IMG/VR virus record: IMGVR_UViG_3300026320_000008
Coordinates: 1-51,938 of that record
Strand: one strand, 5' to 3'
DNA: 51,938 nt
From: a virus
Shown here: positions 8,746-39,543 of the stretch, one piece after another
Layout: each line of letters starts with the position of its first letter
Numbering within the stretch: position 1 is the stretch's first letter
Notes under the pieces: model-generated
Seen by the model: only the letters and a program-made list of their open reading frames with translations
Database searches by the model: none
What the model was told of the DNA's origin: nothing
Translations under genes and position numbers: made by a program

Positions 8746-10579
8746 TGTCCTTACACCGGATATGCTTGCTACTCGAATCACTGAAAGGTGGATCGAATGG
8801 GATACACTCCGTAATGTCAAGAAAATCGATTGGGAAGAGATCCGTCGCTACGTCTATGCGACAGATACGACACAAACAACGAATGCGCAGCTCCCGTGGA
8901 AGAATAAGACGACTGTCCCGAAACTTTGCCAGATAAGAGATAATCTCTTCAGCAATTATACAGCTACAAGCTTTCCCAAGCGTAAGTGGCTCATATGGGA
9001 AGCAGACGAAAAAGACTCAAATTCAGTACAAAAGCGTGATGCAATCACCAACTATATGAGTTGGGCGATCAATCAGAAGGCTTTCAAAACAGAAATATAT
9101 AAAATCATCTTAGACTATATCGACTTCGGAAATTGCTTTGCGACTGTTGAATGGATTGACAATAGAGTGGCTCAATTAGGAAAAACTCAAGCAGGCTACG
9201 TAGGCCCAGCTATTAGACGTATTAGCCCACTAGACATTGTAATGAATCCCACGGCAGAGAACTTCGAGTCTTCTCCTAAGATGATCCGTTCAATCATATC
9301 TCTGGGTGAACTTAGAGATTATCTACAAAGAATGTCCACCGATGAGAATCGCGTGGCAATGGAACAATTATATGAATACTTACGTAACATACGATTCCAC
9401 GCTAGAACGTTTCAGGGTGACTGGCAACAGCGCGATCGTCTATACTCCATGGACGGTTTCACATCGTTTAGAGCCTACCTCCTCTCCGATTTTGTGGAAG
9501 TTCTCACTTTCTACGGAGACTGGTACGACGTCATAAACGATCACTTCGAAAAGAATCGAGTGATCACTGTCGTCGATAGACACAAGCTCATTGAAAATAG
9601 ACCTAACGCTTCTTATTTCGCGAAGCCTCCAATATACCATGTTCCTTGGAGAAAGAAACAAGAAAATCTCTGGGGCATGGGTCCCTTAGACAATCTAATC
9701 GGTATGCAATATCGGATGGATCATGTCGAAAACATGAAAGCAGACGTATTTGACCTTGTCACTTACCCAGTACAGAAGATTAAAGGTTTCGTCGAAGAGT
9801 ATATTTGGAGACCAGGCGAGAAGATCTTCACAGGTGAGGAAGGCGATGTGGAGATGGTCGTTCCGGACGTCCAGGCTCTCAACGCTAATATGGAAGTACA
9901 AAATCTGGAACGCCTTATGGAAGAAATGGCAGGTGCGCCAAGGGAGGCCATGGGCTTTAGGACTCCTGGAGAGAAAACCAAGTACGAAGTACAGCGACTT
10001 GAGAATGCAGCTGCACGACTCTTTCAAAATAAAATCTCACAATTTGAAGAGGAAATGATTGAGCCTCTCTTGAACGCCATGTTGGAATTGGCAAGGCGCA
10101 ATATGACCGGCGTAAATGCCATACGCATATTTGACGACCAACTCAAGATCGCTACATTCCAAGAATTAACGGTTGAGGACATCACAGGAATTGGCCGTAT
10201 TAAACCCGTAGCCGCTCGTCATTTCGCTGAGCAAGCAGAATTAGTTCAGAATCTCACAAGTCTGACAGGATCCAACCTATGGCCTACAGTGCAACCGCAC
10301 TTCTCAGGCGTACGTATGGCACAGGTTCTTGAACAGGTTTTTGACATCGCTGACTATCAGATTGTTATGCCCAACGTGGCAATTGCAGAACAATTCGATG
10401 CTCAGAAGTTCTCTCATGCTCTTGAAGAACAAATGCATCAATCCACTATGACCGCTAGTGGTCAAGGAAGTGATTTTGATTTGAATGGACCAGATACCAA
10501 ACCGGAACACACTCCGATGAATCTTCAGAGACAACCACCCGCTAACGCGACCCCGTCGGGAACATTAGGAACAACGTGA
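8717..10579 (+). CDS. portal protein / head-tail connector (620 aa)
   Basis: Length, the position between terminase and scaffold, and internal features fit podovirus portal proteins: a basic helical N-terminal third, a WGMGPLDNLIGMQYRMDHVENM segment around residue 310-335 typical of the stem/wing transition, and a long C-terminal helical region. Twelve copies should form the DNA channel at one capsid vertex. The last 60 residues are Gln/Pro-rich and probably disordered. SD-like GGAG sits about 18 nt upstream, with AAGAT closer to the ATG. Confidence 0.87.
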   Translation: MTGKTLELHNVLTPDMLATRITERWIEWDTLRNVKKIDWEEIRRYVYATDTTQTTNAQLPWKNKTTVPKLCQIRDNLFSNYTATSFPKRKWLIWEADEKDSNSVQKRDAITNYMSWAINQKAFKTEIYKIILDYIDFGNCFATVEWIDNRVAQLGKTQAGYVGPAIRRISPLDIVMNPTAENFESSPKMIRSIISLGELRDYLQRMSTDENRVAMEQLYEYLRNIRFHARTFQGDWQQRDRLYSMDGFTSFRAYLLSDFVEVLTFYGDWYDVINDHFEKNRVITVVDRHKLIENRPNASYFAKPPIYHVPWRKKQENLWGMGPLDNLIGMQYRMDHVENMKADVFDLVTYPVQKIKGFVEEYIWRPGEKIFTGEEGDVEMVVPDVQALNANMEVQNLERLMEEMAGAPREAMGFRTPGEKTKYEVQRLENAAARLFQNKISQFEEEMIEPLLNAMLELARRNMTGVNAIRIFDDQLKIATFQELTVEDITGIGRIKPVAARHFAEQAELVQNLTSLTGSNLWPTVQPHFSGVRMAQVLEQVFDIADYQIVMPNVAIAEQFDAQKFSHALEEQMHQSTMTASGQGSDFDLNGPDTKPEHTPMNLQRQPPANATPSGTLGTT

Positions 10580-30648: not shown

Positions 30649-30981
30649 TTATAGAATCTCCTCTTTTCTTTTCTTTAGTTGAGCACGAACTATTTTACGT
30701 TTACGTTCACGCTCTTCTTTCATTATTGCATCGGCAACATAATCGTAATCAACTTTCTCAAACCTTTCAGTTTGAGTCCATGTTCGAATCAAGGGATAAA
30801 ACCTTTGTAAGGTTTCATCCCAACGTTGCCAAGGGAACTTTGTATATCCAATGTACATAGTTCCCCATAGTTTCTCCCGACAGAAAGAACAATCGCATTT
30901 ACGTTGTCCTTTCCTTGTGTGCCAAGTTATGTGGGCATCAAGCAGTAGTTTCGGAAGTAGTTCCGCCACTCTTGTCGCCAC
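30649..30981 (-). CDS. hypothetical Cys-containing protein (about 110 aa, GTG start uncertain)
   Basis: The frame from about 30969 to 30649 looks coding: CDCSFCREKLWG then a Trp/aromatic stretch and a Lys/Arg-rich tail. There is no ATG after the upstream stop. GTG codons at 30981 and 30969 lie behind AAGGATAAGGG, inside the end of the upstream gene, so the overlap is about 44 nt. Three Cys in CDCSFC could bind metal. Confidence 0.55.
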   Translation of the reverse strand: MATRVAELLPKLLLDAHITWHTRKGQRKCDCSFCREKLWGTMYIGYTKFPWQRWDETLQRFYPLIRTWTQTERFEKVDYDYVADAIMKEERERKRKIVRAQLKKRKEEIL

Positions 30982-31513
30982 TCTGGCCCTTATCCTTTCC
31001 AGCGGACTGTTGGGCAAGCTCGTAGACGAGTTTCCACTCATTCTTGGTGAGAGCGTCGATGAGAGCTTTCTCATGTTTGGCTACTCCATCAGAGAGCTTC
31101 TTGATTTCGTCGAGACGTCCGGCACTGAATTCTCGACGAACGACTTTTCGATCGCGATCGTACTTGACATCGTCGGGCTTGTCCACTTTGTCACGGGCCA
31201 TCACCAACTTTGTCAAGTTTTCATAGACAGCAGCGAAGGCTTTCGTTTTCTTTTCAGCCTCTCGTTTAGCAATCTCCTCGATAAACAATCCTTCGATAAT
31301 CTCAGGAGATGTTAGTTCCGCTACCTTCTCCACATACTTAGCGAGGATAGCGTTTGAAGGAACCTTTTCGTCGGGCTTGTCGGTGAACATATCAGTCATT
31401 TCCGGTCTCCAAGCAAAATCACCTAATTGTGAACAGGCCTTGGCATAAATGTAACGAAGGTAATTTAACCAAGATACATCAATGGCGAGGCGGTTGTCTG
31501 ATCCGATTGGCAT
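30938..31513 (-). CDS. hypothetical charged protein (191 aa)
   Basis: Very Lys/Glu/Asp-rich helical protein with a low-complexity Gly/Ser/Thr tail. The ATG at 31513 overlaps the HNH-like gene by 35 nt. An alternative ATG at 31399 has GGAG seven bases upstream and would give 153 aa. No named domain. Confidence 0.62.
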   Translation of the reverse strand: MPIGSDNRLAIDVSWLNYLRYIYAKACSQLGDFAWRPEMTDMFTDKPDEKVPSNAILAKYVEKVAELTSPEIIEGLFIEEIAKREAEKKTKAFAAVYENLTKLVMARDKVDKPDDVKYDRDRKVVRREFSAGRLDEIKKLSDGVAKHEKALIDALTKNEWKLVYELAQQSAGKDKGQSGDKSGGTTSETTA

Positions 31514-32404: not shown

Positions 32405-32486
32405 CTAGCAGAGGATCCCTATAGTCTTCGTTTTCAAAGAGGAAATCAACGTATGATTTCTCCAGCTTTATTAACTTCTGGGACAT
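32340..32486 (-). CDS. 48-aa hypothetical protein
   Basis: A perfect AAGGAGG lies seven bases before the ATG at 32486. The product is a highly charged helix (ARAEERIRKEYEKLSQK). It sits in the seam between the exonuclease and endonuclease I genes and overlaps both. Strong ribosome site supports expression; function unknown. Confidence 0.7.
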   Translation of the reverse strand: MSQKLIKLEKSYVDFLFENEDYRDPLLDARAEERIRKEYEKLSQKDED

Positions 32487-33312
32487 CTGGTATCCTCCTT
32501 ACAGTTGTGAGGTAGACTGGTCCGTCAGCATATATAAACGTGCGCAGATTAGGAAAGCAGCAGAACTTAAAAGGTTCGTAGCTTGCGCGCACATCAAGCT
32601 GGACATTTCCGGATGCTCCGTGCGTTCTTGTTCCGCACGTGCAATCAGGGGGAATGCTTCGTCCAACAAACTCTTTATATGCTGCAACTCGTGACTTAAT
32701 GTGCTCATGACGCACCTTATGTTCATATAGACAGATATGACCTAACTCTTTATGGATTGCTAATATGTAGCCTTTGTCTTTTACCAGTACCAGAGGGTCT
32801 GAAGCAGAAGCCACTGTGTAGCCGTCGAGCTGAGATAGAAAACCGAATCCATCACTTTGCTCGATAGTCTTTTGTTTGTACTTAAGAAACTGACGACCAG
32901 AACATGATTTGACATCCACCAAACAACCGTCAATAACAGCATCCCGGTGACCTTTAATGCCATCAAGTTCCAGTTCATCTTGCTCTCCTACAACATGATG
33001 ACCGGCAGCCCTAGCTAATTGAATAGCCAGGGCCTCGATCATGTCGCCGAATGCAAACTTAAACGTTGCCCAAGGGGGAAGGGGTTCAGCCTCGTTGGGT
33101 GTGTGGATAGAATGCCAGAGAGCGCGAGGGCATCGATCGCCCATGCCGGATAAACGTAAGGCAGGAGTTCTTTCTGTCCTTCCCAACGTCTTTGGCAAGC
33201 TCTGAGCAAGCTGTCCTGAAAGTCCTCGACAGAGTTCATCTGTGAACCAGCTGTCCTTTCTCTTGAGGAGGTCCTGAATATCAGGGACCAAGGTATAAAT
33301 TGATGTGTTCAA
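32446..33312 (-). CDS. PD-(D/E)XK exonuclease, Cas4/RecB-like (288 aa)
   Basis: Active-site pattern: FAFGDMIEAL (Glu93), GHRDAVID (Asp124) and VDVKS (Asp133, Lys135), the PD-(D/E)XK order of RecB/Cas4-type exonucleases. Cys61 in GDRCPRALWH and a C-terminal cluster (DCTCG, FCCFP) could hold an iron-sulfur cluster as in Cas4. Probably fills the role of T7 gp6 exonuclease in recombination and host DNA breakdown. TTG at 33312 overlaps the upstream stop (TTGA), a junction used elsewhere in this genome. A GTG at 33372 is a longer alternative. Confidence 0.8.
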   Translation of the reverse strand: MNTSIYTLVPDIQDLLKRKDSWFTDELCRGLSGQLAQSLPKTLGRTERTPALRLSGMGDRCPRALWHSIHTPNEAEPLPPWATFKFAFGDMIEALAIQLARAAGHHVVGEQDELELDGIKGHRDAVIDGCLVDVKSCSGRQFLKYKQKTIEQSDGFGFLSQLDGYTVASASDPLVLVKDKGYILAIHKELGHICLYEHKVRHEHIKSRVAAYKEFVGRSIPPDCTCGTRTHGASGNVQLDVRASYEPFKFCCFPNLRTFIYADGPVYLTTVRRIPDVPEVNKAGEIIR

Positions 33313-33653
33313 TGTAATGTAGATACGGCATCTTTCAGACTGTTCCACATATGGATCATCAATAATGACCACATATAGGTTGCTGGTGGACCGAATGCAA
33401 CGACGAACTTCATCATGTCCCAGTATGTGAGACTCTTGTCGCCTAGCTTCTGCATTCCGGTCTTAGGTGCTGGTTTATTGCCGCTATCTTGTCCTTTCTT
33501 TTGAGCTTCCTGCCACTTCTTGAATTGCTTCTCAATCTTTCTGTGTATCTTCACAGGATCGATTTCGGCAGAGGTTGATGATTGTGGTCCTTGCCACGGC
33601 ATGATAATAAATGGTTGTTGCTGCTGTTGAGGGTATCCCCAAGGCGGCCACAT
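33309..33653 (-). CDS. Gln/Pro-rich hypothetical protein with one membrane-like segment (114 aa)
   Basis: AAAGGAGAGAATCAG precedes the ATG. The N-terminus is Pro/Gln/Trp-rich, the middle is Lys/Gln-rich, and residues about 80-105 (MMKFVVAFGPPATYMWSLLMI) form a weak transmembrane segment. It is the first gene after the structured RNA interval, so it may share its transcript. Function unknown. Confidence 0.68.
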   Translation of the reverse strand: MWPPWGYPQQQQQPFIIMPWQGPQSSTSAEIDPVKIHRKIEKQFKKWQEAQKKGQDSGNKPAPKTGMQKLGDKSLTYWDMMKFVVAFGPPATYMWSLLMIHMWNSLKDAVSTLH

Positions 33654-33710
33654 CTGATTCTCTCCTTTCGCAGAGATGTTCGAATTATTGTTTTTTGAAA
33701 TGTACTAAGT

Positions 33711-34830
33711 GGGGCTCTGCGTCTCCGCTTCACAGCCCCAATGGATTAAGGAGGCATCTTCCCGAACCACTTGTTTCGGTTGAAGTACATACTTCACCTA
33801 CTCTCCTGTGGTTAGAGGGACCTCAGCAGGGACAGTCCCTGAACCCTGTTCTCACTGGCATCCCAGTCAAGACGGTTTCTGAGGCATTCCACAAGTATGC
33901 AACAGGTTCCATAGGTAACCATCGTGGTCCCAACATGTGCTCAAAACTAAGCCTCTTGCACACCCTTTTCGGATACATACCTATAGTGCCTTACTGGCAA
34001 CGCCATCTGTCGATGGCCACCGGACTCGCAGGTCACACAGGCTCTTCACACCCATGCGTCACGATGTCACTCGCAACGTTATCAGGTCGGTAAACCCCAG
34101 TACCCCTGTTGGGGTCACGGACTCGAACCGTTATTACCTCCCTGGGGCCTACAAACTGCGTAACAATCTCCAGAAAGTCCTACTGCTTTTAGTGCTGTGG
34201 TAGACAGCCACAGACTGCAGGCCTTTACGGTATCTCCAATAGACTTCTCATGTTACGTCTCGCTTGACCTTACGTAGTATATTCGCCTACGGGAGACGCT
34301 AGTCTATTGCGTTTATCCTACTTGTCTCGAAAGCATTCTCCATCGGGTACGAACACCCGAATGTCTTCTCTTTTTGCATCACGAGGGGATCTGTTTCCCA
34401 CGGCAGGATTTGAACCTGCACTGAGTTGGTGTGCCCAGCCATCGGTCTTACAGGCAACTTGCTTTCGATCCGAGTCAAAGCTACGAACGCTAGCTCTTCG
34501 TACCTACCGGGCCTCCATTGAATTGTTTGGAACCATATTCACAGAGTATCTCCCGTCCGGCCGCTCCCTGACTGAGTACAGTTACACGACCACTGGCATA
34601 AGACCCGAGCCTCCGCGTCTTCTTGGTCTATTGGCGCGTACTTTTACCTGTAGTCCGTACAGGCCCAGCAACCGCTAGTGCTGGTTGTCCCACCTGAGCT
34701 ACAACATTTGGGTGCAGCTTCAAGTCGTAGGCAGGTCATCACTCCTGCGCCATGTGGACGTTGCGCTTCGGACCCTTTTTCCCCGCCCGCTTTTCACCAC
34801 TCACCGATGATTCGTTCTACGCAAAGGGAC
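33711..34830 (-). ncRNA. candidate large structured non-coding RNA (about 1.1 kb)
   Basis: No convincing minus-strand gene lies between 33654 and 34830. Read on the minus strand the interval holds at least sixteen perfect or near-perfect hairpins: 34731-34748, 34665-34684, 34647-34663, 34482-34502, 34403-34419, 34344-34359, 34195-34213, 34102-34115, 34002-34017, 33854-33867, 33828-33840, 33781-33796, 33762-33779 and 33711-33739. Longer helices enclose others: CAATAGACT/AGTCTATTG (34301-34309 with 34237-34245) and GGCCTGCA/TGTAGGCC (34216-34223 with 34146-34153). Two hairpins are exact tRNA T-arms. Size, phage context and tRNA-like parts recall the GOLLD and ROOL classes of giant phage RNAs, but I cannot confirm membership by eye. 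Confidence 0.7.
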
Positions 34831-35190
34831 TTATGTATTTCTTTTTCGAGGAGGTTTACGTTTGGGAATTTCTTCCTCTTTAATTGCATACACCCCTTTA
34901 ATAAGCTTTTGTCTTTGCATGCCGCAAATATTGAGAAATCGTCCAACGGACAATAGAAAATCTTCATTAATCCAACGATCTACAGTATGTTTACGTTCAA
35001 GATCCATGTTGTACGTTTCCATTCGACCTTGTTTGCAACCTTCCTCTTTGTGAAGTTCAATAACACTTGCTGCATACTCAACCATATCAATCCATCCAGC
35101 TTGCGATTGCAATCTGAGGATATTGGTAACGAGTTCTTCCGCTGTTGGTGTTTTTGTCAACGTAACTAAAGCTTTCGTTGGAGCGTTCAT
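34831..35190 (-). CDS. hypothetical protein (119 aa)
   Basis: GGAGAAGTCCA precedes the ATG. Helical, charged, ends in a Lys/Arg/Pro-rich tail (PKRKPPRKRN) that suggests nucleic-acid contact. It lies just upstream of the structured RNA interval and just downstream of a terminator, so it may be the first gene of a separate transcript. No family recognised. Confidence 0.7.
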   Translation of the reverse strand: MNAPTKALVTLTKTPTAEELVTNILRLQSQAGWIDMVEYAASVIELHKEEGCKQGRMETYNMDLERKHTVDRWINEDFLLSVGRFLNICGMQRQKLIKGVYAIKEEEIPKRKPPRKRNT

Positions 35191-35211: not shown

Positions 35212-35242
35212 AAAAAGAGTGGGGGCGTGCTGGGCGCCCCCA
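35212..35242 (-). terminator. rho-independent terminator (leftward)
   Basis: On the minus strand TGGGGGCG pairs with CGCCCCCA (8 bp, 7-nt loop), followed by ACTCTTTTT. It separates the SSB/polymerase gene block from the 119-aa gene and the RNA interval. Because downstream genes lack an obvious strong promoter, read-through or attenuation is likely. Confidence 0.82.
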
Positions 35243-35291: not shown

Positions 35292-35513
35292 TTACTTTGC
35301 AACGACCATCATCACATCAGTGGGCGCTGGCGTTGCAGTCGTTTCGAGAAGAGTAAAGATCTGCTCTTCCGGAAGACCTTCTGACTTCTTTGCAGACTTC
35401 TTGGCGAACTTCTCCGCTTCTGCCTTGTCGGAGAAGGCACGCGTATAACGGTAACCCGCGTCACCGCTATCAATTTCCTTGGGTTTGAATTCAGACATCA
35501 CAACATAAATCAT
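35292..35513 (-). CDS. small hypothetical protein (73 aa)
   Basis: Start chosen at the ATG 35513 because GGAAGGAAAC lies upstream; an earlier in-frame start would overlap the SSB gene more. Lys/Glu-rich helix in the middle (DKAEAEKFAKKSAKKS). The start overlaps the SSB stop by 4 nt. No recognised domain. Confidence 0.68.
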   Translation of the reverse strand: MIYVVMSEFKPKEIDSGDAGYRYTRAFSDKAEAEKFAKKSAKKSEGLPEEQIFTLLETTATPAPTDVMMVVAK

Positions 35514-36013
35514 TCTTTTGTTTCCTTCCATGGGATGAGATCTGGGAATCCAGATGCCATCTTTGTTTGCTTTGGATCTTCGTAGTCATCGATTTCAAAA
35601 TCGACTAAATCATGAATTTTAACACCGACCAACCTCATTGCTTTACCTGTCTGTTTTGAGATTGGAATAGTGAATGAACGTAATTCTACTTTGACTTCTA
35701 CATCGCTTCCGTTCCCTATCTTCGTGCCTGTGTAAACTGTGTTATCAGCATTGAGTACAGAGGGAGGAGCCATTGGCTGTTCCACTCCATCTCTTCCTTT
35801 AAATTTAATGGGACGAGAGATTGTAACCCAATACCCATCATCGTCTTTAGTGATGTGGTTCTGAATACCTTCCTTTTTCCAAGCTAATACTTTGGTGAGA
35901 GAGTCGTTATCCAGATTAAGATCTATAGTCCACTTAGCATATTTACCGGGGACAATAACATTGGCCCACTTCGATTTTCCTCTCAAGAACTCGATTTTAT
36001 TTGGATTCGACAT
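35510..36013 (-). CDS. putative single-stranded DNA-binding protein (167 aa)
   Basis: Order and composition resemble phage ssDNA-binding proteins: KSKWANVIVPGKYAKWTIDLNL at the start, a polar beta-barrel-like middle with KIGNGSDVEVKVE, and a charged tail (KETKE) that is shorter than the acidic tail of T7 gp2.5. AGGAAG three bases before the ATG 36013 sets the start. It lies near the polymerase gene as expected for a replication partner. Function inferred. Confidence 0.68.
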   Translation of the reverse strand: MSNPNKIEFLRGKSKWANVIVPGKYAKWTIDLNLDNDSLTKVLAWKKEGIQNHITKDDDGYWVTISRPIKFKGRDGVEQPMAPPSVLNADNTVYTGTKIGNGSDVEVKVELRSFTIPISKQTGKAMRLVGVKIHDLVDFEIDDYEDPKQTKMASGFPDLIPWKETKE

Positions 36014-36170
36014 CGACTTCCTGAACACCCAGAACAACTACTGAATTAACATTGTCCTCTGGATACATCACCTTCCACTGTTCAATAGCTTCGTCTTCTG
36101 CGAAATTCTCATCAGGTGCCTTAATCTTAAACTTCTTACTTGTAGTAAATCCAAGTTCAACTTCAAACAT
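35997..36170 (-). CDS. 57-aa hypothetical protein
   Basis: GAGGGA lies eight bases before the ATG 36170. Acidic, mixed helix/strand protein (DENFAEDEAIEQWKVMYPEDN). Overlaps the SSB start by 17 nt. It could be a regulator of the SSB or polymerase by position; unrecognised. Confidence 0.7.
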   Translation of the reverse strand: MFEVELGFTTSKKFKIKAPDENFAEDEAIEQWKVMYPEDNVNSVVVLGVQEVDVESK

Positions 36171-36671: not shown

Positions 36672-38644
36672 TAGTGCGTTACCTTCCAGTTCGTACCGAT
36701 GGTCCACGTCTTGGGATCATCGTGGTTCTTTCCGTAGGTGCCCTTCAATGGACACGCTAAGTTCAATTCTACTCCTACATTTTCTAATGCTTTACATTGC
36801 ACCTCCGCTATTTCTCGAGCATACCATATGTCTCGAGTATCCACTTCTGTCTGCCACTCATCATGGACTAGATTAACTAAACGCCATCCTTCGTAACCGT
36901 TGGCATTTAGGTAATCCATCCACTTGAGAGTGGCCATCTTCATTATCACAGCTTCTCCGTTTTGGAGATAGCCAGACATTGCAAGATGTTTTCTCTCGGA
37001 GAGAGAGTCTCCAGGTATTCGAACACGCCTACCGTCCAACCCTGTGAAGTAGCCTGCTTTTGCATCTTTAAGAGCTGTTTCTTCTTTAAGATGTAGCCAC
37101 CCTTGGTATTTAGACAGTAAACGATTAAGTGCCTCTTCGGTCTGTGATACTGAACATTCAAGAATCGAAGCCAGTTTCGCAATCCCCGCTCCGAGAACGA
37201 GCGCATATACAAAGCGTTTCGCAGCATCTCGGGTCTTACAGCTAGAACCAAGTACTCTTTTGTTGAGAGAATGTGTATCGGTTTCATCTTCCTTACGTCC
37301 TTCAACAAGAGACTTGGTGAACTCCGGATCCTTGATGTAGTGAGCAAGTATACGCATTTGTATACCATCTGCGTCCACACCAATCAAGAGTTTCTTTCGA
37401 GGAGCGATGAATAAGCCGCGCATATCTGCGCCTAAATATTTCTCCTTACCATTCAGATCATGGCTATTTGCAATGTTAGCCATGTTGGGTTTCTGATGGG
37501 ACATACGGTGAGTCCAAGTTCCAATGCTGAGAAACTTTCCACGGATCCGATCATCATAATCGTCGACGAGATCAAGCCACTCGGTAAGTGTACGTCGCCT
37601 GGACTCAACCGTAATCCTCCTTGCCAGTGTCTTTGCACTTTTTGGCGCTTGAGGAGGAAGAGTATTTAAATTAGTATCATTTATCTTCCAACCGTAAATA
37701 GATAGATGTGCTAAACGTTGTTCCCAATCGACAAGAGGGTCTCGATCTCTTCTTTTGGAGGCTTGCGCCACGTCAATATGAGTTTTAGTTCTGTCGGTAG
37801 GCTGCCACGCTGCAAGCCGTAGTACATCGATTCGTTGTTTATGTGAGTCCGGATTAAAAACTGTCCAAGCACATCTGCAAAAAGGACCTCCGTTGAACTC
37901 ACTGAGATCTCCATTCTCACACCATCTGAAGTCCTTACGGTGAAGTGTTCCATGTTTGGTGTACTCCGGTGTTATTTCTCGGATGAGTTGGAGTCTCGGC
38001 GGAAACTCTTCTTTAAGTTTATGATCGAGGTCATTAAGCGTATTAAGGACCCGGTCCAGAAGAACACGAGATCGAACACTATCGAAACCAAACCCAGTGT
38101 GACCAAGGCACCGACAAACATTAGCCATTCGTTGCTCAGTGCTAAGAGCGCGCCGCCAGTGTTTATTAGAGCCAGGGAGGAAACCTTTCCCATATACAAT
38201 AAGAATGCGCTCACAGATATCCACATCTCGTTCACAGTACTCCTCCATCTCCTGAGAATATTTACTAAAGTCTGCGAAGTCTATCTTCGGAAGACCGAAT
38301 TCTTCTCCGTAACTTTCAATCGAATGAGACTCTCTGGAGAAATCTATTAGCTGAGATATGATAAGAGTATCAATACATTTCTCCAGAGGAATTTCAAAAC
38401 CGAGGAGGGAAGAGAGAACAGGATTATCGTAACCGATACAATTATGGCCAATCCATAACCGAACACCTGCTGCAAATCGGAGAAAGCGTTCTTTCTCTTG
38501 TTCATCATCTGAGACCTTTCTGAAGATTTGTAAGGAGTCGTAGGATCCCTTTACATCGGACGATGACAACACCTTACAAACAATAAGCCAGATCTTTGTG
38601 GGGTTCTCCAACCCATTAGTTTCAATATCAAAGACAACCTTCAA
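36671..38644 (-). CDS. DNA polymerase, family A, T7-like (657 aa)
   Basis: Exonuclease motifs: FDIETN (Asp6, Glu8), GHNCIGYDNP (Asp73) and YCERDVDI (Asp140). Polymerase motif A IGVDADGIQMRIL (Asp424), motif B RDAAKRFVYALVLGAG (Arg472, Lys476, Tyr480) and motif C LVHDEW (His594, Asp595, Glu596). Gln429 stands where T7 has Glu480. Tyr480 matches T7 Tyr526, a residue linked to virulent phages. TTG start overlaps the upstream stop (TTGA). It is slightly shorter than T7 gp5 and replicates the phage genome. Confidence 0.95.
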   Translation of the reverse strand: MKVVFDIETNGLENPTKIWLIVCKVLSSSDVKGSYDSLQIFRKVSDDEQEKERFLRFAAGVRLWIGHNCIGYDNPVLSSLLGFEIPLEKCIDTLIISQLIDFSRESHSIESYGEEFGLPKIDFADFSKYSQEMEEYCERDVDICERILIVYGKGFLPGSNKHWRRALSTEQRMANVCRCLGHTGFGFDSVRSRVLLDRVLNTLNDLDHKLKEEFPPRLQLIREITPEYTKHGTLHRKDFRWCENGDLSEFNGGPFCRCAWTVFNPDSHKQRIDVLRLAAWQPTDRTKTHIDVAQASKRRDRDPLVDWEQRLAHLSIYGWKINDTNLNTLPPQAPKSAKTLARRITVESRRRTLTEWLDLVDDYDDRIRGKFLSIGTWTHRMSHQKPNMANIANSHDLNGKEKYLGADMRGLFIAPRKKLLIGVDADGIQMRILAHYIKDPEFTKSLVEGRKEDETDTHSLNKRVLGSSCKTRDAAKRFVYALVLGAGIAKLASILECSVSQTEEALNRLLSKYQGWLHLKEETALKDAKAGYFTGLDGRRVRIPGDSLSERKHLAMSGYLQNGEAVIMKMATLKWMDYLNANGYEGWRLVNLVHDEWQTEVDTRDIWYAREIAEVQCKALENVGVELNLACPLKGTYGKNHDDPKTWTIGTNWKVTH

Positions 38645-39543
38645 GCAGTCACGATCATAGGAAATCCTTGTCCTCTTAAAACATCACTTATATATTTCAG
38701 ACCATCTGTCTGTGTCTTCTCTTCAGTAGTAAAGAAATCATTTCCTTGTACAGAGGGTATAACATACATGTTTTTCTCTGTCAAGCCTTTTCTTTCGAGG
38801 TTTCCCACCATTCCTAAACCATGCCCCAACGCAGAATTTATGGAATGATAACCTTCTTCAGCGAAGATGAACCTTCTGAACATCGCTGGATGTCCTATAC
38901 CAAAAGCAATACGATGTATGTCTACAGGTTGATTACTATTCTTCACCTGTATCCAACTGCATGTATTGATATTGTCACCATAGTGACTTTTTGAAAAGAC
39001 AATAACATCACAAGCATATCCTGCTGCTTCTGCTTGTTCTACTACTGCGGCCACCGCAGCAGCCCTATTGATAAATTCATCAAAACTGTGATTAGCAGAA
39101 GCACATATATCACTGAGGAAGGTAACGATAGGTCTTCGAGAGGCCTTCGTTGTGTCTGGACCGCGCATATTAAGAGGATTACCTGCAACAGCGCGAGCGA
39201 CATTTGGGTAAGATCCCACCACATCGTGCTTCACTTTCTTCAGCTGAATGGGATTGTTTGCTCTGATCTTGTCTACCAATCGAGATGCTTGGGTAACTCC
39301 CTCCGGCCATCCCTCTCGTGCGAGTTTGATGGCTTCCTTCATGGAACTAGTTCCATAGAAATTACTGGACTCTACCCATGCTGAATTACACCATGCTTTA
39401 TTGACATCCCAGGTTTCTATTTCTTTCGCCATCGCTTCTGGGGAAGACCAGTATGAAGTAAATACTCTTTTTGCACTACTAGTTTCATGCTGTGGGAGAA
39501 CGTATTGAAGTTCTCCCGCATTCCCTTGTGTAAGTCTCTCCAA
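38641..39543 (-). CDS. DUF7192-like protein, MoxR partner candidate (300 aa)
   Basis: Contains MKEAIKLAREGWPEG (about 67-82), a motif I associate with a phage domain of unknown function (DUF7192) often found near a MoxR-type ATPase. Later ASRRPIVTFLSDICASANHS and YACDVIVFSKS fit a von Willebrand A-like beta/alpha fold. TTG at 39543 has AAGAGG seven bases upstream. With the ATPase upstream it could form a chaperone-like remodelling pair as in MoxR/VWA or CobS/CobT systems. Confidence 0.68.
   Translation of the reverse strand: MERLTQGNAGELQYVLPQHETSSAKRVFTSYWSSPEAMAKEIETWDVNKAWCNSAWVESSNFYGTSSMKEAIKLAREGWPEGVTQASRLVDKIRANNPIQLKKVKHDVVGSYPNVARAVAGNPLNMRGPDTTKASRRPIVTFLSDICASANHSFDEFINRAAAVAAVVEQAEAAGYACDVIVFSKSHYGDNINTCSWIQVKNSNQPVDIHRIAFGIGHPAMFRRFIFAEEGYHSINSALGHGLGMVGNLERKGLTEKNMYVIPSVQGNDFFTTEEKTQTDGLKYISDVLRGQGFPMIVTA
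38756..38784 (-). promoter_or_regulatory. internal sigma-70-like promoter upstream of the polymerase gene
   Basis: On the minus strand TTGACA, a 17-nt spacer and TATACC, inside the coding sequence of the MoxR-partner gene. The start of transcription would be about 100 nt upstream of the polymerase start. The -35 is perfect, the -10 is 4/6. Confidence 0.5.

Follow-up and report, generated by a model that had tools for sequence, protein, structure and literature searches.

The interval 33711-34830 of the 51.9-kb virus record analysed here (the window) probably holds a member of an undescribed class of giant RNAs, carried in a cassette with a ribosome-arrest ORF and a membrane protein and working through a parked ribosome. 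Across related phages, the RNA has a conserved fold, tRNA-type T-arms on the RNA strand, an ORF ending in Pro-Pro-stop in every member and a constant gene linkage, and its carriers form a single clade. The cassette lies inside a DNA-replication operon, in the order giant RNA, arrest ORF and small Lys-rich protein.

An ORF-free interval and its counterparts in related phages

The features of the window on which the analysis draws are as follows, from upstream to downstream.

35510..36037, minus strand: SSB-like small protein, the upstream anchor, named from position and conservation only
34831..35190, minus strand: 119-aa ORF directly upstream of the RNA, outside the conserved cassette
33791..34830, minus strand: giant structured RNA, about 1.04 kb (ORF-free 1043 nt), lying between the stop codon of the 119-aa ORF and the mini-ORF, both bounds being gene edges and not mapped RNA ends
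34403..34419, minus strand: T-arm 1, GCAGG-TTCAAAT-CCTGC, with a 5-bp hairpin before and a 4-bp hairpin after it
34195..34213, minus strand: conserved hairpin CTGTGG-[CTGTCTA]-CCACAG, the same 7-nt loop standing on other stems in other lineages
34116..34132, minus strand: T-arm 2, AACGG-TTCGAGT-CCGTG, with a G+C-rich hairpin directly after it
33795..33807, minus strand: Shine-Dalgarno region of the mini-ORF (AGGAG, AGGTG), read from the sequence
33746..33790, minus strand: mini-ORF MYFNRNKWFGKMPP*, 14 codons, a predicted termination-arrest peptide ending CCT CCT TAA; Pro-Pro-stop in all relatives
33710..33740, minus strand: G+C-rich hairpin directly after the mini-ORF stop, with a hairpin there, by eye, in many relatives
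33309..33653, minus strand: 114-aa protein rich in Pro, Trp and Lys whose C-terminal segment is hydrophobic by hydropathy, the probable membrane partner
32446..33372, minus strand: Cas4-like exonuclease, the downstream anchor (PHROG 1990, E=3e-17)

The SSB-like protein has no family match, and the 119-aa ORF retrieved zero relatives as a query. The exonuclease is 51-55% identical to four relatives in A1, and its true start may lie about 20 codons inside the listed ORF. A DUF7192 protein adjoins the family A polymerase at 38641-39543 (-). An intrinsic-terminator-like hairpin (TGGGGGCG/CGCCCCCA, then CTCTTTTTC) at 35220-35242 (-), between a 79-aa gene and the 119-aa ORF, lies upstream of the RNA, which hints that the RNA is made by read-through or as a separate transcript; a scan for a promoter of its own gave matches below chance expectation.

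An earlier, sequence-only reading had described the interval as free of minus-strand genes and proposed a protein-family match as the finding that would speak against an RNA. None was obtained with Pfam for any ORF of 33711-34830 on either strand, so the description holds as far as known protein families go, but the minus strand does carry a Shine-Dalgarno-led ORF of 14 codons at 33790-33746. This Pro-Pro-stop mini-ORF at the 3' end, which that reading overlooked, is the most informative part of the interval. A larger protein gene that had escaped notice because it is recoded, frameshifted or on the plus strand is the least credible of all the explanations weighed here. Plus-strand frames are open for up to 136 codons, yet they match no family, and the RNA strand is closed under stop recoding, its longest frame measuring 79 codons with table 11, 103 with TAG read as Gln and 114 with TGA read as Trp. 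Furthermore, substitutions between relatives show no 3-base periodicity in 4 of 5 pairs (L027/L042 is uneven, 33/16/33), most indels are not multiples of 3, and a conserved frame is absent in close pairs.

Related IMG/VR contigs were gathered via the polymerase and the Cas4-like exonuclease. In contigs of uncultured phages whose exonuclease identity is at least about 46%, the SSB-like gene and the exonuclease are separated by a long, mostly ORF-free region of about 1-2.8 kb; its part without Shine-Dalgarno-led ORFs of 60 aa has a median length of 1.4 kb and reaches 2.8 kb. Such a syntenic ORF-free counterpart of the RNA was found in 58 further phages and in 28 held-out contigs. More distant relatives, including the cultured Sinorhizobium phage phiM6, have about 0-1 kb at the locus, mostly filled with genes, and the long ORF-free stretch is absent from the outgroups of the clade. 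The exonuclease of phiM6 is the nearest from a cultured phage (41% identity), and its locus lacks the RNA, as do two distant MAG loci with exonuclease relatives, labelled Altiarchaeales and Dependentiae, which are probably viral contigs (L106, L107). In the exonuclease tree, all 55 RNA carriers fall into one clade of 57 rows with 100/100 support, the two other rows being contigs whose sequence starts within or at the exonuclease. The terminase is nearest to those of Lentibacter, Celeribacter and Roseobacter phages.

The RNAs themselves are hardly alignable between lineages, falling into over 20 blast groups of which the window RNA is a singleton; direct nucleotide homologues of it were found neither in phages nor at polymerase-relative loci nor among the 59 intervals. 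The tRNA-linked context once suggested for the interval does not apply: the window has 0 tRNA genes and hence no tRNA island, the RNA itself carrying two tRNA-type T-arms. Among whole phage records of the clade, 18 of 21 lack a tRNA gene and 3 have one.

Conserved fold and tRNA-type T-arms

The proposal of a giant structured phage RNA of a new class, absent from Rfam, is borne out by covariation in relatives, strand-specific T-arms and synteny. Covariation was assessed in seven alignable relatives (L005, L052, L055, L068, L069, L074 and L082), mostly 65-80% identical in their alignable parts, and a first consensus fold of these showed compensatory change in 116 of 268 pairs. In domain A3, 94.5% of cells are paired and 39 of 86 pairs show double changes, compared with 17.0 ± 2.6 in shuffles and 2-8 when slid; the corresponding values for domain A4 are 92.7%, 28 of 65 pairs, 14.6 ± 2.4 and 2-11. 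Since these same alignments also yielded the structures, the pairing percentages are inflated, the contrast of double changes with shuffles less so, and no shuffle reached the observed double-change counts in either domain. Compensatory pairs occur in other groups as well (no controls run). The fold is thus conserved in the relatives. The window RNA has no close nucleotide homologue, and its own predicted fold rests on motifs and synteny.

The interval had also been described as densely structured. The helix CAATAGACT/AGTCTATTG listed in support is present, although a third copy, at 34626-34634, offers the same arm another 9/9 pairing. However, the density does not exceed chance: over 200-nt windows on the RNA strand, the mean folding z is -1.1 inside the interval versus -1.3 outside, and since local folding energies are no lower than in the coding neighbourhood, a count of hairpins is not evidence by itself. 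Stronger local folding than in the RNA was seen at 36801-37000 of the window (z -8.5), inside the polymerase gene, and at 30701-30900 (z -7.3/-5.8), in the gene at 30649-31074.

T-arms were defined as matches to the pattern 4N-GTTCRANYC-4N in which at least 3 of the 4 pairs form. The 59 intervals contain 90 of them on the RNA strand and 0 on the opposite strand (0.6 ± 0.8 in shuffles), flanking DNA totalling 502 kb gave 8 and 5 matches, and the 28 held-out contigs contain 34 on the RNA strand versus 0 opposite. In 26 of 79 cases a hairpin begins no more than 3 nt after the T-arm, versus 11% at random. T-arm 1 of the window aligns with a T-arm of L013 through a compensatory C-G to A-U double change and lies within the only Rfam match at E<=10 in the interval, a partial, sub-threshold hit of the tRNA covariance model (34401-34485, 18.9 bits). 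Among the other loops shared across lineages are CTGTCTA and, near the 3' end, CAGATWA. ARAGORN found no tRNA in any of the 59 intervals and none in the window, and the intervals contain no cloverleaf and no consistent acceptor stem. Real tRNAs with long inserts were considered and dropped, since the sequences that could pair as acceptor with the 7 nt following a T-arm lie at scattered distances (no shuffle control). Neither a model match nor an ARAGORN call pointed to tmRNA in the window or the scanned relatives.

The T-arms might act as decoys for tRNA-recognising enzymes or nucleases, such as T-arm modification enzymes or tRNA-cleaving defence toxins, and so shield phage or host tRNA, a role that we regard as rather improbable. 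The loops are exactly of the tRNA type GTTCRANYC and enriched on the RNA strand only; T-loops are among the commonest 7-nt loops, TTCGAGT being the commonest among 5-bp hairpins, while their stems vary freely (GTTGG/CCAAC, GCTGG/CCAGC, GTCGG/CCGAC). However, neither an anticodon arm nor an acceptor stem exceeds background, so the RNA does not mimic substrates that are recognised by their anticodon; the strict motif is missing from 6 of 59 members, and large RNAs also use T-loops as structural modules.

Still less can be said for a decayed tRNA array or a diverged ribosomal RNA, which is refuted for practical purposes. Apart from the T-arms, this reading draws on a 19-nt exact match of L004 to positions 757-775 of Escherichia coli 16S rRNA. 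Decay is excluded by the strong covariation; the stretch resembling 16S forms a covarying GNRA hairpin (GC-GAAA-GC, GC-GGAA-GC and GG-GAAA-CC in L004, L012 and L077, respectively), and no covariance model for SSU, LSU or tRNA matches over threshold. The element concerned, GAGCCCCAC...GGTGCGRAAGCGTGGGAG, is shared by L004 (8100-8180), L012 (12890-12960) and L077. The sequence GAAGTACTCCGGGTCGGAGACAGGCTAAAT at about 14630-14680 of L012 resembles the 23S peptidyl-transferase region by eye and is not significant in blastn. Outside the RNA, L052 has a sub-threshold match to the His operon leader at 9085-9189 (-), 37 bits against a cut-off of 49.

The Pro-Pro-stop mini-ORF and the downstream Lys-rich protein

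All 59 intervals have, at the 3' end, an ORF of 11-33 codons that is preceded by a Shine-Dalgarno sequence and terminates in Pro-Pro-stop. The C-terminus is [Q/R]PP in 47 of 59 and the stop codon TAA in 58 of 59. When a strict Shine-Dalgarno sequence is demanded together with Pro-Pro-stop, 55 of 59 intervals qualify, versus 2 on the opposite strand and 1.2 ± 0.8 in shuffles; the four outside this count have a weaker GAGA site before the mini-ORF. The next commonest C-terminal dipeptide among such ORFs occurs in 7 of 59. As background, flanking DNA totalling 502 kb contains 2 Pro-Pro-stop ORFs, and 356 kb from outgroups contains 3. In a held-out test on 28 new clade contigs from two further scans, the ORF with its Shine-Dalgarno was present in 28 of 28 (one of 7 codons), whereas 1 of 21 distant contigs had one, by chance.

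Usage of the penultimate Pro codon matches that of the phage genes, so it is the amino acid that is under selection. For the last Pro, 46 of 53 phages use CCT, compared with 42% genome-wide, and an arrest specific to this codon or its tRNA is possible. Within groups, C-terminal residues are kept through synonymous changes, as for ...QQKPRPP in L005, L055, L068 and L074. A candidate mimic of the 16S anti-Shine-Dalgarno near the 3' end, CCTCCTTAA, was rejected: it is the end of the mini-ORF, and its penultimate Pro codon varies freely. Taken together, the RNA class and its mini-ORF are well supported.

TnaC and SpeFL are short ORFs that arrest at their own stop codon and have a C-terminal Pro. 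Arrest by C-terminal Pro-Pro at the ORF's own stop codon is likewise the hallmark of E. coli YbeL-PP, in which Pro-Pro before the stop impedes termination and leads to stop-codon cleavage and tmRNA tagging, with arrest in all contexts tested (PMC3834316). Release-factor-mediated release is slow on a C-terminal Pro (PMC7246954), and among Pro codons, CCU and CCC are the slower ones (PMC8129111). With a ribosome-binding site and Pro-Pro-stop, the mini-ORF resembles YbeL-PP in sequence and is predicted to arrest, although this behaviour is known from E. coli and may not hold for the hosts of these phages. The new class differs from TnaC, SpeFL and YbeL-PP in that only Pro-Pro-stop is universal, the rest of the peptide being variable, and in the giant structured RNA upstream.

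A Lys/Glu-rich ORF starts a median of 65 nt after the mini-ORF stop, in many members with a G+C-rich hairpin between, and is followed by the exonuclease. The encoded protein typically has 67-118 aa and a hydrophobic C-terminal stretch in 51 of 53 cases by eye, 37 of 53 passing a stringent hydropathy cut; the window protein itself scores low, its ORF having been truncated where the interval stops. The 114-aa window protein has no Pfam or PHROG match. Judged by hydropathy only, the protein is usually tail-anchored in the membrane. Its gene is co-inherited with the RNA and the mini-ORF, and a Lys-rich ORF with a C-terminal helix was not seen at this position in outgroups.

This arrangement invites the possible but unlikely explanation that the whole is only a cis-regulatory leader, the giant RNA acting as a sensor and a ribosome stalled as on TnaC or SpeFL freeing the Shine-Dalgarno sequence of the membrane-protein gene. 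Mini-ORF, hairpin, Shine-Dalgarno and gene are spaced as in an attenuator, and the CCUCCUU end of the mini-ORF can pair with the membrane-gene Shine-Dalgarno: the CCNCCUU/Shine-Dalgarno duplex has a mean of -5.6 kcal/mol versus -1.7 for random 8-mers, and the cluster-A consensus pairs CUCCUU with the downstream site. This pairing nevertheless lacks compensatory change, is weaker in many members because the first Pro codon is free at its wobble position, and could be a by-product of C-rich Pro codons; moreover, a multi-domain fold of 1-2.8 kb far exceeds any leader known to us.

Comparison with known RNAs and a proposed mechanism

At gathering thresholds, no Rfam family was detected in the window or in 20 relatives. 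The interval had been likened to GOLLD and ROOL, an assignment that model searches of the window and relatives did not sustain: E-value searches, run up to E=10 on the window interval and also on six relatives, gave no match to the GOLLD, ROOL and OLE models. A separate GOLLD search was likewise without a match in the window (a member would score over 150 bits), but it found none in control genomes either and is no proof by itself, while the ROOL model (RF03087) did recover ROOL on pMP118. The accession formerly quoted for GOLLD, RF01998, belongs to the group II intron family group-II-D1D4-1; that of GOLLD is RF02032.

GOLLD resembles the new class in being a large structured phage RNA of unknown function. 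It often lies near or contains real tRNAs, unlike the new class, which has T-arms only and no covariance model match, and we know of no Pro-Pro-stop ORF described for it. In pull-downs, GOLLD was reported to be ribosome-bound (PMC12286853). ROOL and the large ncRNA of phage ICP1 are comparable in being ORF-free, several hundred nt to about 1 kb long, and encoded by phages or plasmids. The most abundant ICP1 transcript is an ncRNA of about 800 nt in an ORF-free gap (PMC7567579), located in our set as follows.

L105 20098-21108, minus strand: ORF-free gap of Vibrio phage ICP1 with the ncRNA

T-arms and a Pro-Pro-stop ORF are both absent from the pMP118 ROOL and the ICP1 ncRNA; thus, the link between RNA and Pro-Pro-stop is not general to large phage RNAs.

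OLE is a cellular RNA, and we know of no Pro-Pro-stop ORF associated with it. The new RNA shares with it a charged membrane-type protein encoded directly downstream (51 of 53), the commonest downstream neighbour of OLE RNA being the membrane protein OapA, which has a positively charged cytoplasmic face and is required to bring OLE RNA to the membrane (PMC12265935). The two differ in that OapA has four predicted helices and the protein of the new class usually one C-terminal hydrophobic stretch, and in the lack of a covariance model match. Like tmRNA, the new RNA combines a short ORF with tRNA-like elements in a single molecule; by contrast, it has its own start codon and Shine-Dalgarno, is several times longer, and shows no acceptor stem or CCA end. 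No counterpart of the RNA class or of its pairing with a Pro-Pro-stop ORF was found in Rfam 15 or open-access PMC.

We infer the parking of a ribosome, and with it the role of the RNA, along the following lines. A ribosome would start on the mini-ORF and stall at its stop codon, the stall being predicted from the slow release of a peptide ending in Pro-Pro, and would thereby be parked at the 3' end of the RNA. Less confidently, the parked ribosome may control expression of the membrane protein, define and protect the 3' end of the RNA, or both; 3'-end formation comes into question because arrest on YbeL-PP yields cleavage at the stop codon. With similar reserve, RNA, ribosome and membrane protein may form a ribonucleoprotein during phage DNA replication. 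A ribonucleoprotein combined with arrest ranks before a pure leader, and the leader before a tRNA decoy. Going further, we tentatively picture an RNA device that captures a host ribosome, with the Pro-Pro-stop lock at its 3' end, T-arms touching the translation machinery and the Lys-rich tail-anchored protein as a membrane tether during replication.

Large ornate RNAs are known as a broad kind, and it is this RNA class and its combination with a Pro-Pro-stop ORF that appear to be new. To our knowledge, the function of large structured phage RNAs such as GOLLD and ROOL has remained unexplained since their discovery. The new class comes with a built-in clue to its role, the linkage to a membrane protein together with an invariant signal for ribosome arrest, which narrows the question of what giant phage RNAs do to two codons, Pro-Pro, and suggests that an arrested ribosome may be a structural part of a noncoding RNA or the maker of its 3' end.
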